Shown in pieces: positions 10,169 through 16,312 of a stretch of DNA of 64,000 nucleotides (the first letter of the stretch is position 1; each line of letters begins with the position of its first letter). The stretch is from Brachyspira alvinipulli ATCC 51933 (GTDB lineage Bacteria; Spirochaetota; Brachyspiria; Brachyspirales; Brachyspiraceae). The position numbers and the translations under genes are program-made. Below the pieces are notes generated by a model. The model saw nothing but the letters and a program-made list of their open reading frames with translations. It was not told the origin of the DNA and ran no database searches. The stretch spans positions 178,544-242,543 of the forward strand of contig NZ_KI912402.1 of assembly GCF_000518245.1 (NCBI RefSeq), given 5' to 3'.

Positions 10169-11530
10169 ATGAATATTTTAGTAATAAATGGAAGTCCTAA
10201 AGGAAACAACAGCATAACTTTGCAAACTATATTATTTTTAGAGAAATTATTTATAGAGCATAAATTTGAATTTTTAAATGTAGGACAAAAAATAAAATAT
10301 TATGAAAAGAATTTCAATGAAATAAAAGAAGCATTTGAAAAATCGGATATAATAATTTTTTCTTATCCTGTATACACCTTTTTAATACCTTATCAATTGC
10401 ATAGATTTATAGAATTACTAAAAGAAAATAATATAAATGTTAAAAATAAATTTGCAACGCAGTTTTCTACATCTAAACATTTTTATGATGTAACTGCTCA
10501 TAAGTTTTTGGAAGAAAATTGTTTAGATTTAGGATTTAAATATATAAGGGGGCTTTCTGCTGATATGGAGGATTTAACTAATAAAAAAGGACAGGATGAT
10601 GCTATAAACTTTTTTAATTATTTAATATTCTCTATAGAAAATAATTTATATATTCAAAATATTAATTCGAAATCGAAAGATAAAATTATATACAAAAGAA
10701 GATTTAATAATAATATTGGAAACAAAGACAGCAGCAAAGATGTTCTAATATTAAGTAATACTTCAAAAGATGATGAGAATTTAATAAATATTATAGAAGA
10801 TTTTAAAAATATTTTTCCATATAAAACAAGAGAGATAAATATAAGAGAGTATAATTTTCATGGCGGATGTTTAGGATGTTTCGGATGTGCTATAACAGGC
10901 AAATGTGTTTATAAAGACGGATTCGATGATTTTCTTCGTAATGAGATACAAAAAGCCGATGCTATTATATATGCATTTACTATAGAAAACCATTATACAC
11001 ATTCAAGTTTCAAACTTTATGAAGACAGGCAATTTTGCAATGGACATAGAACAGTTACAGAAGGTATGCCTATAGGATATATTATAAGCGGTGATTATGA
11101 CAGCGAATATAATTTGCAGACTTTTATAGAATCACGTGCTGAAGTAGGAGGAAATTTTTTAACTCATATAGCTAATGATTGTAATAGAGATATATATAAT
11201 GAACTTGAAAAATTATCTTCTATTATGAAATATTCTATAGATAATAAATGCACTCGTCCTAAAAATTTCTATGGTGTAGGCGGAATGAAAATATTTAGGG
11301 ATTTAATATATGTAATGCAGGGGCTTATGAAAGAGGATCATAAATATTATAAGAAACACAATATATATGATTTCCCTCAAAAGCAGAGAATGAAAATGCT
11401 TCAGATAAAATTAGTAGGAGCTTTAATTTCTATTCCATCAGTTCAGAATAAAATGAAAAATAAAATGAATGAATATATTTTAATGCCTTATAAAAAAATT
11501 ATAGATAATGCAAAAATAAAAAGAAGCTAA
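10169..11530 (+). CDS. Two-domain iron-sulfur flavoprotein / NAD(P)H oxidoreductase
   Basis: A 453-residue protein that looks like two flavodoxin-fold modules in series. Module 1 begins MNILVINGSPKGNNS (an FMN-phosphate loop) and covers roughly residues 1-165. Module 2 begins near residue 190 (KDVLILSNTS), where the FMN loop is less clear. Between strands it carries the compact cluster motif C-x2-C-x2-C-x5-C at Cys234, 237, 240 and 246, typical of archaeal and anaerobic iron-sulfur flavoproteins that bind 4Fe-4S plus FMN. The fused layout is longer than the usual ISF of about 200 residues. Probable role: electron transfer or reductive detoxification in the cytoplasm; the substrate is unknown. 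Confidence 0.75.
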   Translation: MNILVINGSPKGNNSITLQTILFLEKLFIEHKFEFLNVGQKIKYYEKNFNEIKEAFEKSDIIIFSYPVYTFLIPYQLHRFIELLKENNINVKNKFATQFSTSKHFYDVTAHKFLEENCLDLGFKYIRGLSADMEDLTNKKGQDDAINFFNYLIFSIENNLYIQNINSKSKDKIIYKRRFNNNIGNKDSSKDVLILSNTSKDDENLINIIEDFKNIFPYKTREINIREYNFHGGCLGCFGCAITGKCVYKDGFDDFLRNEIQKADAIIYAFTIENHYTHSSFKLYEDRQFCNGHRTVTEGMPIGYIISGDYDSEYNLQTFIESRAEVGGNFLTHIANDCNRDIYNELEKLSSIMKYSIDNKCTRPKNFYGVGGMKIFRDLIYVMQGLMKEDHKYYKKHNIYDFPQKQRMKMLQIKLVGALISIPSVQNKMKNKMNEYILMPYKKIIDNAKIKRS

Positions 11531-11558
11531 TAAAATATTATCAGCTTCTTCTATATTT
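11521..11558. terminator. Probable bidirectional terminator between flavoprotein and YwnB-like genes
   Basis: An 8-bp perfect stem, aagaagct (11521-11528) with agcttctt (11543-11550), overlaps the flavoprotein stop codon and is followed by tatattttt. The genes on both sides converge here. Confidence 0.6.
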
Positions 11559-11567
11559 TTATAATTA

Positions 11568-12203
11568 TTATTTTGAACAGAATGTTATTTGTTGATTTAA
11601 ATATTTTTTATTTTGTATTTCATCAACAAAAGCAATTGCATAATCAGCATAACTGATAGAACTTTCACCTTTAGAATTGAAAAGTAATTCATTATGCCCT
11701 ATATTGTATTCTCCTGTTCTCTTTCCTTCAGCTTGAAAATCTGCAGAAGGGGATACATAAGTCCATAAAACATCTTTTTTGCTTTTTAATATATCAAATG
11801 CTTTAATAGAACTTACAGCTACACCCATGAAAATATCTGGAAAATCAGGAGTATCTTTTAATATCATAGTATGCTCTTTATTTACATATAAACTTGAAGC
11901 ACCTCCTATTACCATTAATCTAATATTGGTATTAGCGAGTATTTTACATAAATGCTCCATGACTAATGAATGCTTATCAAGTTCTTTTTCTTCCCATACT
12001 CCGAATGCACTTACAACGGTATCAAATTCTTTCAAATCATCTTTTGTCAAATTAAATAAATCTTTTTCTATAACTTTTACTTTTGGATTATTTATTTTTG
12101 TTTTATCCCTTACTATTGCTGTAACATCTAATCCTCTTGCTAATGCTTCATTCATAATTAATTTTCCAGCTTTTCCATTTGCTGCTATTATTGCAATTTT
12201 CAT
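11568..12203 (-). CDS. NAD(P)-binding oxidoreductase, YwnB-like
   Basis: A 211-residue atypical short-chain dehydrogenase (NAD(P)-binding, NmrA-like). The N-terminal MKIAIIAANGKAGKLI is a Rossmann glycine motif; VVSAFGVWEEKELDKH and LMVIGGASSLYVN follow. No catalytic Tyr-x3-Lys is evident. Bacillus subtilis YwnB is the nearest family I recognise, and its neighbour there is the Rrf2 protein YwnA, whose homologue is encoded here at 14081. The gene has its own promoter immediately after the sirtuin gene, with the same operator layout as the macrodomain promoter, so it is very likely co-regulated with the ADP-ribosylation genes. Substrate unknown. Confidence 0.75.
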   Translation of the reverse strand: MKIAIIAANGKAGKLIMNEALARGLDVTAIVRDKTKINNPKVKVIEKDLFNLTKDDLKEFDTVVSAFGVWEEKELDKHSLVMEHLCKILANTNIRLMVIGGASSLYVNKEHTMILKDTPDFPDIFMGVAVSSIKAFDILKSKKDVLWTYVSPSADFQAEGKRTGEYNIGHNELLFNSKGESSISYADYAIAFVDEIQNKKYLNQQITFCSK

Positions 12204-12249: not shown

Positions 12250-12274
12250 AGTTGTAATAGCTATTATTACAACT
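12250..12274. promoter_or_regulatory. Palindromic operator 1, over the start region of the ywnB-like promoter
   Basis: Perfect 10-bp arms agttgtaata (12250-12259) and tattacaact (12265-12274) with a 5-bp spacer. It sits directly downstream of the -10 hexamer. It belongs to the set of four 25-bp palindromes with consensus TTGTAATA-N5-TATTACAA found only around this locus. Confidence 0.8.
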
Positions 12275-12303
12275 ATAATAACATGTTTTGGTTATAATGT
12301 CAA
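12275..12303 (-). promoter_or_regulatory. Promoter of the ywnB-like gene
   Basis: On the minus strand a perfect -35 TTGACA (12298-12303) is followed by a 17-bp spacer and a -10 TATTAT (12275-12280). The hexamers and spacing are the same as in the macrodomain promoter at 13973-14001. Confidence 0.8.
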
Positions 12304-12314
12304 GTATTACAACC
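12290..12314. promoter_or_regulatory. Palindromic operator 2, overlapping the -35 of the ywnB-like promoter
   Basis: Arms ggttataatg and tattacaacc with spacer tcaag; eight of ten arm positions pair. The 18-base core at 12295-12312 is identical to the core of operator 4 (13993-14010), which occupies the same place in the macrodomain promoter. Confidence 0.75.
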
Positions 12315-12321
12315 AAAAAAA

Positions 12322-13173
12322 TTAATTTTTTATATATTTTAACACTTTAGAAATATCATCATCTATGCATATAGAACGATCTTCCAATCTTGAAACAGGA
12401 ATGGAATTATTTATATTAATAGAAGCATAAATTGAATTCTTATTTTTTAAAGCCATTTCTAAAAAAGGATATTTTATTATGCCTGGAGTATTATATCCTA
12501 CACCTAATTCTAAAAATAGTATTCTGCCATTTTTTGACTCATCTAAAAAATTTTTATATTTATTTTTTGATTTATACCAATTTTCATCTTGAACAAAAGT
12601 ATTATCTGATCTTAAATTCATTGACATATTGGCACCGCAATACGGGCATTTTGGAACTAATTCGCTTGGTATTTTCATGTCTTTTCTATATTTTACCATT
12701 TCTCTAATATATTTCTCATTATAAAAAGTTTCCTGCTTACATGGTATTGAACATTGAAAAAGTGAATAGTCTCCCTGAACTTTAAATAGTTTTTTGCTAT
12801 CAAAATTTGCTTCTTCAAATCTGCCATCTACATTTGTTGTAATAACAAAATAATTTTTATTTTTCACTATATCTAAAAGATTTAAATGTGTTTCATCTGC
12901 TGGTATATCGTATCTGTTAAGGTAAACAAAAAGAGAAAAATATCCCCAAAAATCTTCTATTGTTGGATATTTATAAAATCCTGCAATGTACATATCTGTT
13001 AAACCGTATTTTTCTTTATATTCGTGAAAATTGTCATCAAATCTTTTTCCGCTATATAAGAAACCCGCTGAAGCTGAAAGTCCTGCACCTGCTCCTATTA
13101 GTATGTAATCCGATTTTTCTATAGCTGATTTTAATTGTTCTGCAGATTTTGTATCTTTTAATTTTTCATTCAT
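12322..13173 (-). CDS. Class M sirtuin (SirTM), probable protein ADP-ribosyltransferase
   Basis: A 283-residue Sir2-fold protein. NAD-binding GAGAGLSASAG lies at 27-37, TTNVD at 112-116 (Asn114) and four zinc cysteines at Cys141, 145, 176 and 179. The usual catalytic HG is replaced by QG (Gln133), and the region CPYCGANMSMNLR plus LELGVGYNTP matches the SirTM class. SirTM enzymes of Staphylococcus aureus and Streptococcus pyogenes ADP-ribosylate a lipoylated GcvH-like protein instead of deacetylating. The start overlaps the macrodomain stop by four bases (ATGA), so the two are translationally coupled. Known SirTM operons also contain gcvH-L and lplA2; neither is present here, so the target in this organism is open. 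Confidence 0.85.
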   Translation of the reverse strand: MNEKLKDTKSAEQLKSAIEKSDYILIGAGAGLSASAGFLYSGKRFDDNFHEYKEKYGLTDMYIAGFYKYPTIEDFWGYFSLFVYLNRYDIPADETHLNLLDIVKNKNYFVITTNVDGRFEEANFDSKKLFKVQGDYSLFQCSIPCKQETFYNEKYIREMVKYRKDMKIPSELVPKCPYCGANMSMNLRSDNTFVQDENWYKSKNKYKNFLDESKNGRILFLELGVGYNTPGIIKYPFLEMALKNKNSIYASININNSIPVSRLEDRSICIDDDISKVLKYIKN

Positions 13174-13940
13174 ATTGTAACTCCCAAATTATTATAATAA
13201 AGCTCATAATCTAAATCTTTAAATACATTAAATAATATTTTTATATCATAATCGTTTTCATTTAAAAAAGATTTTGCTGCTTTGACTGCTATATCTGAAG
13301 CTAATTTATTTGGAAATCTAAACTCTCCAGTAGATATACAGCAGAATGCGATACTTTTTATACCATTGTTTTTAGCTGTTTCTAAGCATGATTTATAGCA
13401 TTTATATAAAAGCTCCTCATCATTTTTTGATACTTCATTTTGTATTATTGGACCTACTGTATGCAAAATATATTTACTAGGCAAATTGAAAGCTGGAGTT
13501 ATTCTGCATTTTCCTGTCTCTTCTGATGTTCCTTTCATCATATCATTGCAGTATAATCTTAATCTAGTTCCAGCAGCACTATGGATAGCATTGTCTATAC
13601 ATTTATGAAGAGGAACAAAACATCCAAGCATAGCAGAGTTTGCAGCATTGACTATTGCATCTATTTTTAAAGTTGTTATATCTCCTTTCCATAAACATAA
13701 ATTATTATTAATTGGTTTTATATCATCTATATTAGTTATTATTTTATTTTTTAATCTTTCTTGTAAATATTCATCTTCAATTTTTAGATATTCTTCACTT
13801 ATAGTTTTTGGGTATCGTATATTCATTAAATATCTAAAATAATTATATAATTCTTCTTCATTGTTATTTTTTGCTTCTATATCTATATTATATTTTCCTT
13901 CTTCTATAAGATAGTTTATTAAAAATAGTAATTTATCCAT
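13170..13940 (-). CDS. Zinc-dependent macrodomain protein (ADP-ribosyl hydrolase)
   Basis: A 256-residue protein: an N-terminal helical region (about 1-75), then a macrodomain from residue 80 with GDIT at 86-89, IVNAANSAMLGCFVPLHKC at 96-114 and STGEFRFP at 203-210. Cys107, His112 and Cys114 match the Cys-His-Cys zinc site of the Zn-macrodomains linked to SirTM, which remove ADP-ribose from the SirTM target. It is the first gene of the pair with the sirtuin, so writer and eraser are made together. A consensus promoter with two palindromes lies just upstream, divergent from the Rrf2 gene. Overall confidence in the fold is high; hydrolase activity is inferred from the family. Confidence 0.87.
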   Translation of the reverse strand: MDKLLFLINYLIEEGKYNIDIEAKNNNEEELYNYFRYLMNIRYPKTISEEYLKIEDEYLQERLKNKIITNIDDIKPINNNLCLWKGDITTLKIDAIVNAANSAMLGCFVPLHKCIDNAIHSAAGTRLRLYCNDMMKGTSEETGKCRITPAFNLPSKYILHTVGPIIQNEVSKNDEELLYKCYKSCLETAKNNGIKSIAFCCISTGEFRFPNKLASDIAVKAAKSFLNENDYDIKILFNVFKDLDYELYYNNLGVTI

Positions 13941-13950
13941 ATCTGATTCC

Positions 13951-13975
13951 TAATGTAATTGTGCTTATTACAATA
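13951..13975. promoter_or_regulatory. Palindromic operator 3, over the start region of the macrodomain promoter
   Basis: Arms taatgtaatt (13951-13960) and tattacaata (13966-13975), spacer 5 bp, eight of ten positions paired. It covers the expected transcription start of the macrodomain gene, mirroring operator 1 at the ywnB-like gene. Confidence 0.65.
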
Positions 13976-14001
13976 ATATGCTGATTTTATTGTAATGTCA
14001 A
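13973..14001 (-). promoter_or_regulatory. Promoter of the macrodomain-sirtuin operon
   Basis: On the minus strand: -35 TTGACA at 13996-14001 (perfect consensus), 17-bp spacer, -10 TATTAT at 13973-13978. The -35 is embedded in operator 4. Confidence 0.8.
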
Positions 14002-14012
14002 GTATTACAATA
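13988..14012. promoter_or_regulatory. Palindromic operator 4, overlapping the -35 of the macrodomain promoter
   Basis: Arms tattgtaatg (13988-13997) and tattacaata (14003-14012), spacer tcaag, nine of ten positions paired. It also lies just upstream of the divergent Rrf2 promoter, so one bound dimer could affect both directions. Confidence 0.78.
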
Positions 14013-14025
14013 AAAAATATTTTTG

Positions 14026-14054
14026 TTGTAATAAGAGCATAAATGTATTATAAT
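14026..14054 (+). promoter_or_regulatory. Promoter of the Rrf2 regulator gene
   Basis: -35 TTGTAA at 14026-14031, 17-bp spacer, -10 TATAAT at 14049-14054. The -35 lies within a lone half-site (ttgtaata at 14026-14033) of the operator consensus, which suggests weak autoregulation. Confidence 0.65.
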
Positions 14055-14080: not shown

Positions 14081-14500
14081 ATGAAAATTAGTTCAAGGTT
14101 TACAATAGCAGTTCATACATTACTTTGCATATTAGAGTTTAAAGATGATAAAATTACATCAAATTTCATATCAGGAAGTGTTAATGTTAATCCTGTTATA
14201 ATAAGAAATATATTACTTCAATTGCAAAAAGGAGATATTATTACTGTTAAGAGAGGTACAGGAGGAATATCTTTAAATAGAAAACCGGAAAATATTACAT
14301 TATTAGATATATTCAATGCTGTGGAAAGTTTAGATGATAATAAGCTTTTTAGCTTCCATGAAAATCCTAATAAAAAGTGTCCTATCGGAAGCAGAATTAA
14401 TGATATTTTGCAGCCTAAATTAGATAATGTGCAAAATGCTATGGAGAAGGAATTACAAAAGACTAGTTTAAGAGATATATTCAAAAATTTAAATCCTTAA
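14081..14500 (+). CDS. Rrf2-family transcriptional regulator, YwnA-like
   Basis: A 139-residue winged-helix protein. The N-terminal SSRFTIAVHTLLCIL and SVNVNPVIIRNILLQLQKG carry the Rrf2 HTH; KRGTGGISLNRKPENITLLDIF is the wing; HENPNKKCPIGSRI follows near 93-106 and matches YwnA-type proteins. It has only two cysteines (Cys16, Cys100), not the three of IscR/NsrR, so an Fe-S cluster is unlikely; Cys100 could be a thiol sensor (inference). It is divergent from the macrodomain-sirtuin operon and sits beside repeated 25-bp palindromes also present at the ywnB-like gene, so it is the natural candidate repressor of all three genes. Confidence 0.87.
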   Translation: MKISSRFTIAVHTLLCILEFKDDKITSNFISGSVNVNPVIIRNILLQLQKGDIITVKRGTGGISLNRKPENITLLDIFNAVESLDDNKLFSFHENPNKKCPIGSRINDILQPKLDNVQNAMEKELQKTSLRDIFKNLNP

Positions 14501-14605
14501 AAATATTCTATATTTAAGCTTTATATATTGTAAAAAAATAATTCTTGATATTTTAATTGTATTATGTTAATATTATTATGTAAACTATATTATGATAATA
14601 AGATT

Positions 14606-16312
14606 ATGATAACTAATATTAAAGAAAAATATCTGAAAGAAAATTTAATAGCGTATATTGGAAATAAGAGGAGACTTTTACCTTTTATAGAAAATACAAT
14701 ACTTAGCATTTTAGATGAAGATAATAGTATAAAAACAGCTTTAGATTTATTTGCAGGAAGCGGCAGCGTATCAAGACTTTTGAAAACTTTAAATTTGGAA
14801 GTATATTCAAATGATTGGGAATATTATTCTTATGTATTAAATTATGCTCATTTAGAAATTAATATTGAGGACTTAGATAATATGTTTATTCATACTGGAG
14901 GATTGGAAAATACAATACGTATGATTAACAATATTACTAATATTAATGATTCAGATAGGTATATATCGAAATATTATGCACCATTGGATGATAATAATCC
15001 AGATTTATTGAATGAAAGACTTTTCTACACACAATATAATGCTACAAGAATAGATATAATAAGGCATAATATAGAACAGCTTTATAAAAATAATGCAATA
15101 AATCAAAAAGAATATTATTATCTTTTAGCATCAATAATATATGAAGCAGCAACACATACAAATACATCAGGTGTTTTCAAAGGATTTCATGCTGGGTTTG
15201 GCGGAAGAAATAAAGATGCTTTAAATAGGATACTCGCAGAAATATCATTGAATGAAATACCTTTATATTCAGGAAAAAAATGTTATGCAAGTATGCTTGA
15301 TGCAAATGAGTTTGTATTAAAAAATAAAAATAAACATTTTGATTTAGTATATTTAGATCCGCCTTATAATCAGCATCAATATGGAAGTAATTATCATTTA
15401 TTGAATACTATAGCTTTATGGGATAAGCCGTCTATTAATAAAGATATATACATTAATGGTAAAAAAACTGATAAGAGCGGTATTAGAAAAGATTGGATAA
15501 AAACAAAATCTTTATACTGCTATAAAAAAACAGCCAAAGAGACTTTAATAAATTTACTTGATAATATAGATTCTAAACATATAGTTATGAGTTATTCTAC
15601 AGATGGTATAATAGAATATGATGATTTAATATCTATACTTGAGAGCAAAGGTGAATTAAATATAGTAACTTCAGAATATACAAAATACAGAGGTGCTAAA
15701 AGATCTATAGTTAATAAAACAAAAAACGTTGAATATTTATTTGTAGTCAATACAGAAAAACAAAAAATTACTGGAAATAAAATAAATAAAAATTTGAAAT
15801 ATATAGAAAATATTAGATTAAAACTTGAGAATCCATTTGATTGTACAAATGATAATATTATTTTCCTAAATAAAGAAGGCAACATAATATTTCAATTAGA
15901 ATATTCCACTCATGCAGTAAATAAAGATGAAATATGTAATAAACTTCAAAATAAGAGTTTAGAATATATAAATGCATTTTCTTTGTTTTTAGATAAGTAC
16001 ATAAAAGAAGATAATATAGAAGCATTAAAAATATACTCATCTCATTTTAAAAGTGCAGTTATATCAAATAATACAAAACTTATAAAATATTTTGGAGAGC
16101 ATATATTAAAAGTTTACAGCAGGCTATGTTCTAAAAAATCTAATGAGTATATAATTGATATTACTAATGATATTTTAGATATTATATCATATTATGAGTA
16201 TAATGATATTTGCGTTATTAATAAGATAAGAAATAGGATAATTTACAATATTACGCATTCTAATATTCCAGATTTTAAGAAAAATAAATTATTAATAAGG
16301 CTTGAAAAATAA
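14606..16312 (+). CDS. D12-class adenine-specific DNA methyltransferase with long C-terminal extension
   Basis: SAM-dependent N6-adenine methyltransferase. Counting from ATG 14606 (568 residues), AYIGNKRRLLPFI (16-28) and DLFAGSGSVS (47-56) form the SAM site, and DPPYNQHQYG at 251-260 is the catalytic motif IV; this order is that of the MethyltransfD12 group. An ATG 42 bases upstream adds an unrelated hydrophobic stretch and has no ribosome site, so it was not used, though neither start has a strong one. Residues from about 375 onward (roughly 190) are a helical region I do not recognise. No restriction endonuclease gene is adjacent, so it looks solitary. Confidence 0.8.
   Translation: MITNIKEKYLKENLIAYIGNKRRLLPFIENTILSILDEDNSIKTALDLFAGSGSVSRLLKTLNLEVYSNDWEYYSYVLNYAHLEINIEDLDNMFIHTGGLENTIRMINNITNINDSDRYISKYYAPLDDNNPDLLNERLFYTQYNATRIDIIRHNIEQLYKNNAINQKEYYYLLASIIYEAATHTNTSGVFKGFHAGFGGRNKDALNRILAEISLNEIPLYSGKKCYASMLDANEFVLKNKNKHFDLVYLDPPYNQHQYGSNYHLLNTIALWDKPSINKDIYINGKKTDKSGIRKDWIKTKSLYCYKKTAKETLINLLDNIDSKHIVMSYSTDGIIEYDDLISILESKGELNIVTSEYTKYRGAKRSIVNKTKNVEYLFVVNTEKQKITGNKINKNLKYIENIRLKLENPFDCTNDNIIFLNKEGNIIFQLEYSTHAVNKDEICNKLQNKSLEYINAFSLFLDKYIKEDNIEALKIYSSHFKSAVISNNTKLIKYFGEHILKVYSRLCSKKSNEYIIDITNDILDIISYYEYNDICVINKIRNRIIYNITHSNIPDFKKNKLLIRLEK

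Follow-up and report, generated by a model that had tools for sequence, protein, structure and literature searches.

In S. aureus and S. pyogenes, the extended SirTM operon consists of LplA2, GcvH-L, Macro, SirTM, OYE and LLM, and it has been linked to oxidative stress. Bacterial SirTM and macrodomain genes occur in independent as well as extended operons, with Spirochaetaceae among those listed (Rack 2015, PMC4518038). The structure of MorMacro of Methanobrevibacter oralis, which comes from a minimal operon, has been solved, and the pairs that stand alone in E. faecalis and Treponema pedis have been modelled (Ariza 2024, PMC11490716). Minimal pairs of this kind are two adjacent genes without GcvH-L or LplA. 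The latter report also showed that MorMacro and the fusion-type Zn-Macros cannot demodify GcvH-L, and calls the targets of other SirTM/Zn-Macro systems elusive.

On the regulatory side, SifR of pneumococcus, which is related to YwnA of B. subtilis, is an Rrf2 repressor that senses quinones via one conserved Cys in the motif HxxPNPxC and binds TGTAA-N9-TTACA; YwnB, which SifR regulates in pneumococcus, is an NAD(P)H quinone reductase, and HypR of S. aureus binds the same core operator (PMC9218516). The word "macrodomain" is absent from the main text of that paper, and the SirTM operon of S. aureus was not found in a quinone-stress paper looked through for it.

An earlier reading of the locus described here, made from the DNA letters without database searches (the sequence-only reading), had offered a pair without GcvH-L and LplA2 as the novelty. 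However, such minimal pairs, spirochaetes included, are found already in PMC4518038 (2015) and PMC11490716 (2024), and the pair of Brachyspira alvinipulli is therefore one more example of an architecture already on record. No target was identified here, in agreement with the sequence-only reading, and PMC11490716 had already raised the question of what other SirTM/Zn-Macro systems modify. The enzymes are known and, judged on the open-access literature, the new part is the regulatory neighbourhood: no regulator, operator or quinone-reductase partner is given for minimal pairs in the examined parts of the two papers, whereas the Brachyspira pair lies in a SifR/YwnA-type regulon. This bears on a question left by the published work, namely the substrates of minimal SirTM/Zn-Macro pairs and the conditions under which these pairs are active.

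The macro-sirTM locus

The window, the whole stretch of DNA that was analysed, comprises 64,000 nt of Brachyspira alvinipulli ATCC 51933 (GCF_000518245.1, NZ_KI912402.1 178,544-242,543, forward strand). The features of the locus, in window coordinates, are as follows.

11519-11552, minus strand: terminator-like hairpin 3' of ywnB, a likely end of the transcription unit; the evidence is weak because 1 hairpin was found and 0.5 expected
11568-12203, minus strand: YwnB-like NAD(P)H-binding protein (PF13460, 2.9e-14), predicted quinone reductase, downstream of sirTM with its own promoter
12252-12272, minus strand: candidate operator 2 of ywnB, TTGTAATAATAGCTATTACAA; the genome (3.42 Mb) contains no other perfect 8-5-8 palindrome
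12275-12303, minus strand: ywnB promoter, TTGACA-17-TATTAT, 11 of 12 consensus matches
12292-12312, minus strand: candidate operator 1 of ywnB, TTGTAATACTTGACATTATAA, including the -35 box
12322-13173, minus strand: SirTM, class M sirtuin of 283 aa, predicted mono-ADP-ribosyltransferase
13170-13940, minus strand: Zn-Macro, zinc-dependent macrodomain of 256 aa, predicted mono-ADP-ribosylhydrolase
13953-13973, minus strand: candidate operator 2 of macro-sirTM, TTGTAATAAGCACAATTACAT, just 3' of the -10
13973-14001, minus strand: macro-sirTM promoter, TTGACA-17-TATTAT, 11 of 12 consensus matches
13990-14010, minus strand: candidate operator 1 of macro-sirTM, TTGTAATACTTGACATTACAA, including the -35 box TTGACA and conserved in the genus
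14026-14054, plus strand: putative, promoter-like site of rrf2, TTGTAA-17-TATAAT
14081-14500, plus strand: Rrf2 regulator of SifR/YwnA type, predicted thiol-based quinone sensor, divergent from macro-sirTM

Beyond rrf2, positions 14564-16312 (plus strand) encode a protein of 582 aa that resembles D12-class adenine methyltransferases and has a long extension at its C terminus, and it is also found beside rrf2 at two other loci (L046 and L169).

The macro and sirTM genes overlap by 4 bp (ATGA at 13173-13170), and both the sirtuin and the overlapping macrodomain that the sequence-only reading had proposed were confirmed, on the minus strand. The best PDB match of the sirtuin in phmmer searches was SpySirTM (5a3a, 1.3e-64), followed at a distance by the fungal Mfs1 (8e-25). 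The motifs that had been named by eye are all present: TTNVD, Q133 where deacylases have His, and the zinc cysteines (Cys 141/145/176/179), which are conserved in the alignment of relatives. N114, Q133 and R188 correspond to Asn118, Gln137 and Arg192 of SpySirTM, mutation of which strongly lowers transfer (PMC4518038); these three residues, as well as the QG (Q133-G134) in place of the catalytic HG, are invariant across 18 relatives. When a profile of the 18 SirTMs was run against all PDB chains (E<=0.01), SpySirTM and Mfs1 alone were recovered and no deacetylase chain was. The sirtuin is therefore predicted from its sequence to be a SirTM, that is, an ADP-ribosyltransferase rather than a deacylase, in agreement with the earlier assignment.

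For the macrodomain, MorMacro is the closest solved structure (8rsi, 1.2e-80, compared with 2e-67 for SauMacro), and the score against NF003163 was 328.8 bits with a cut-off of 272. By sequence, the N-terminal three-helix extension is covered, since the match to NF003163 is full-length (2-252) and that to MorMacro spans 3-249. The Cys-His-Cys zinc site ascribed to the upstream gene is present as a Cx4HxC loop at 107-114 (C107, H112, C114), together with NAAN and a D116/H120 dyad (D-x3-H), and the triad is kept in 93 of the 93 Zn-Macro rows of the alignment. The protein is thus predicted to be a Zn-Macro with mono-ADP-ribosylhydrolase activity. In the macrodomain tree, Brachyspira forms a strongly supported clade (100/99) separate from SauMacro and SpyMacro, with the copy of genome G022, which is also the unlinked one, as its deepest member; the deep branching order is poorly supported and long branches come together, and therefore no claim is made on the root position of the clade.

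Rrf2 regulator and shared operators

The sequence-only reading had named a YwnB-like protein and an Rrf2 regulator as neighbours, which is correct, but it drew no inference from either. These neighbours are the most informative part of the locus, as they point to a SifR/YwnA-type, predicted quinone-stress regulon with the pair among its members. The Rrf2 protein (PF02082, 9e-30) contains HENPNKKCPI, which fits HxxPNPxC before helix 5; its Cys100 is 100% conserved in SirTM-linked relatives, and in the Brachyspira Rrf2 a Lys takes the place of the motif's second Pro, which several relatives have.

Both the macro-sirTM and the ywnB promoters carry a 21-bp palindrome, TTGTAATA-N5-TATTACAA (that is, tTGTAA-N9-TTACAa, which fits the SifR consensus), over the -35 and a second copy just past the -10; the operator TGTAA-N9-TTACA is thus present upstream of ywnB as well. 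This double-operator layout is common to the two promoters across the genus loci, with flanking sequence that drifts. Operator 1 of macro-sirTM occupies the same position in 13 of the 14 genus loci, with 1-3 mismatches to the 21-bp model, and is absent in L047, where the second of the macro operators alone remains. The -35 of the rrf2 promoter-like site lies within an operator half-site, which suggests that rrf2 may be autoregulated.

The strict form, TTGTAAY-N7-RTTACAA, was found twice in the B. alvinipulli genome, once per promoter, and the reversed control pattern was not found; with up to 2 mismatches allowed, there were 44 genome sites, 4 of which fall in the ~260 bp that make up the macro-sirTM and ywnB gaps. 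All strict sites in G118, G078, G108, G113 and G022 (4, 4, 4, 3 and 2, respectively) are at the macro-sirTM/ywnB promoters. This includes G022, in which macro-sirTM is 1.76 Mb from rrf2-ywnB and a strict site is present at both. Genomes G072, G009 and G093 have additional strict sites elsewhere. What is shared with the SifR/YwnA-YwnB system, here from sequence alone, is therefore an Rrf2 protein with its Cys in PNxxCP(V/I), the TGTAA-N9-TTACA operator, and YwnB under that operator. In contrast to that system, the strict-operator regulon of B. alvinipulli consists of macro-sirTM and ywnB only, a second Cys (Cys16) is conserved, and the host is a spirochaete.

Distribution within Brachyspira

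SirTM is present in 14 of the 26 genomes of the genus, and ywnB is retained in 8 of the 12 SirTM-negative ones. In six of these eight (G009, G065, G128, G147, G155 and G171), rrf2 and ywnB are divergent neighbours and the region between the two genes carries operators; the ywnB of G065 is split into two frames. Thus rrf2-ywnB can exist in the absence of the pair, which represents a layer that was added or lost. A double operator in which a TTGACA is embedded was found near a flavodoxin/ferredoxin-type gene of G093 (L207, G093:C2:2466038-2466097), a genome that lacks both SirTM and YwnB, and it is possible that this gene is a further member of the quinone regulon. A tandem duplication of ywnB was seen at L039:8605-9980, in which the second copy has no operator in the 160 bases upstream.

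Association of the pair with redox genes beyond the genus

The comparison outside the genus covered 106 non-Brachyspira loci; the 80 loci taken from genome contigs were the best of a longer list, and therefore the frequencies hold for the sampled loci only. In this sample, 14 of 15 Rrf2 relatives were within 2.5 kb of SirTM and none was beyond 5 kb. Enrichment near SirTM was also seen for YwnB (at 9 loci), a PNPOx-ferredoxin flavoprotein (at 21), nitroreductase (at 12) and an HxlR-family regulator (at 28), but not for ABC transporters, MATE transporters or flavodoxins. Chance linkage was ruled out, because no Rrf2, YwnB, PNPOx or nitroreductase gene was seen at distances above 5 kb, where ABC/MATE transporters and flavodoxin still occur. 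YwnB adjoins SirTM/Macro in differing gene orders in Treponema-like spirochaetes and Clostridia, and examples of gene order are HxlR<>YwnB-Macro-SirTM and Rrf2-rSAM-nitroreductase-PNPOx-Macro-SirTM; since gene order varies, the association is not one inherited block.

In Clostridia and spirochaetes other than Brachyspira, too, the pair occurs together with the TGTAA-N9-TTACA operator and an Rrf2 regulator. Outside the genus, 20 perfect copies of the operator were found within 3.5 kb of SirTM, compared with an average of 0.76 and a maximum of 5 in shuffles, and other spacings (5-8 and 10-14) occurred 0-2 times; at least one of the 20 sites is inside coding sequence and may be due to chance. Genome counts, shuffles and spacer controls rule out a chance operator. 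On the other hand, Rrf2 is not linked to the pair in many of the clostridial cases, and an HxlR (DUF24) regulator is found near SirTM at 28 of the 106 loci (for instance L080, L099, L127, L144 and L146), usually divergent, as if substituting for Rrf2. Therefore, the circuit is not universal.

Proposed mechanism and nature of the signal

We consider that the locus is probably a lipoate-independent mono-ADP-ribosylation switch within a quinone/electrophile-stress regulon. At the level of sequence, this is based on the enzyme families, the catalytic residues, the lack of GcvH, LplA and lipoyl-type domains (see below), the shared operators, the confinement of the strict operator and the recurrence across phyla, and we infer the enzymatic activities, the quinone signal and the repression. 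With thiols reduced, Rrf2 would occupy TGTAA-N9-TTACA over the -35 and start region of both promoters, keeping macro-sirTM and ywnB off. A quinone or another thiol-reactive electrophile would react with Cys100 and release the repressor from both promoters, after which YwnB could reduce quinones with NAD(P)H. SirTM would transfer ADP-ribose from NAD+ to an acceptor, from which the co-induced Zn-Macro would remove it by zinc-dependent hydrolysis. Since writer and eraser are co-transcribed, their balance may be set after transcription, for example by the NAD+ level or the state of the substrate. The shared operator points to a trigger that can be tested, namely quinones or related electrophiles, and to a cell state suited to a search for the modified protein.

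A quinone is the predicted signal by homology with SifR. Alternatively, the same pair and regulon could respond naturally to hypochlorite or to disulfide/oxidative stress, with Cys16 and Cys100 acting as a HypR-like dithiol. Cys16 is 96% conserved in the linked Rrf2 set, besides the fully conserved Cys100, and therefore these proteins may be dithiol sensors of the HypR (HOCl) kind instead of monothiol sensors of quinones; the core operator bound by S. aureus HypR is the same (PMC9218516), and the HypR family NF041852 is the best NCBIfam match of the window Rrf2. However, this match scores 57 bits, far below the cut-off of 180, the residue at the position of HypR Cys33 is not Cys, and both the PNxxCP(V/I) motif and the YwnB partner belong to the SifR/YwnA cluster. 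We therefore regard a HypR-like signal as unlikely, but as the strongest of the alternatives, and quinones or related electrophiles as the better candidates.

Candidate targets of the pair

Within the proposed quinone/electrophile switch, the acceptor could be YwnB or another co-regulated flavin/NAD(P)H enzyme, by analogy with GcvH-L, which is encoded in the extended operon together with the pair. YwnB has the operator in common with the pair and is adjacent to it in Brachyspira, and its position beside SirTM/Macro in varied gene orders in Treponema-like spirochaetes and Clostridia would also be consistent with such a role. However, 8 Brachyspira species have YwnB without SirTM, most clostridial SirTM genes have no linked YwnB, and other flavoproteins are more often linked to SirTM, so that YwnB or another such co-regulated enzyme seems an improbable target. 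Since no neighbour is universal, we name no target, and the acceptor may be encoded elsewhere.

At L049, L050, L052, L061, L091, L093, L095 and L150, SirTM was found with no Zn-Macro within the fetched flanks, and some of these genes directly follow a YwnB or PNPOx-ferredoxin gene; the eraser may have been lost or may be encoded elsewhere.

A lipoylated GcvH or lipoyl E2, as in Staphylococcus and Streptococcus, is a far weaker candidate. The lack of GcvH-L and LplA2 beside the pair had been recognized, and the genome-wide search proposed at that time was carried out here. In the genome of B. alvinipulli (3.42 Mb, 99.99% complete), family searches found neither GcvH nor an LplA/LipB-type ligase; the 2 matches of the broad BPL/LplA/LipB family are biotin-ligase-like, one of them adjoining bioB, and the 2 Biotin_lipoyl domains both have the biotin motif AMKM and are in decarboxylase-type subunits, so that no lipoyl-type carrier domain was found among the Biotin_lipoyl matches of the genome. 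Furthermore, Arg175/Arg176 of SauMacro, which are part of the GcvH-L-binding patch, are Gln/Asn in the window macrodomain. Taken together, these searches and replacements exclude a lipoyl-GcvH-L substrate in B. alvinipulli as far as sequence can tell. The homology of the pair to the Staphylococcus/Streptococcus system favors such a substrate, but the minimal MorMacro was unable to demodify GcvH-L (PMC11490716), and a lipoyl substrate is largely refuted.

The same pattern was found more widely. In 54 of the 63 spirochaete genomes with SirTM, no GcvH scored above the family cut-off (in 50, there was no match at E<=0.001), and LplA is missing from 52. Both are missing in 13 of the 14 SirTM-bearing Brachyspira; the fourteenth, G022, has LplA only. 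Thus a writer/eraser pair can persist in an organism without detectable GcvH, LplA or lipoyl-type domains, and lipoyl-GcvH-L is therefore not the general substrate. In comparison with the extended operon, B. alvinipulli shares the homologous writer and eraser, flavin/NAD(P)H oxidoreductase neighbours and a stress context, but differs in the absence of GcvH-L and LplA2, in having no OYE or LLM neighbours and no detectable protein lipoylation, and in the replacement of the GcvH-L-binding basic residues of SauMacro. In a broader reading, which taken as a whole is possible but doubtful, the lipoyl-GcvH-L system of staphylococci and streptococci would be a specialised offshoot.

SIR2 domains occur in defence systems. 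Because of this and its sirtuin fold, the protein might be taken for an anti-phage NADase or a deacetylase, but this is very unlikely, since PADLOC gave no match, which speaks against a defence-system identity, the context is that of a stress regulon, and the profile search and the Gln in place of the catalytic His speak against a deacetylase. Some other sirtuin genes were seen in the course of the survey. The sirtuins of other spirochaetes at L067, L068 and L069 are just 27% identical to SirTM. In one copy (L011/L040, G167:C115), an in-frame TGA in SirTM and a split macro frame indicate a decayed copy or an assembly error, and in Robinsoniella peoriensis (L116) Macro and SirTM have a second, partial match to SirTM between them, located ~700 bases 5' of the SirTM match itself.
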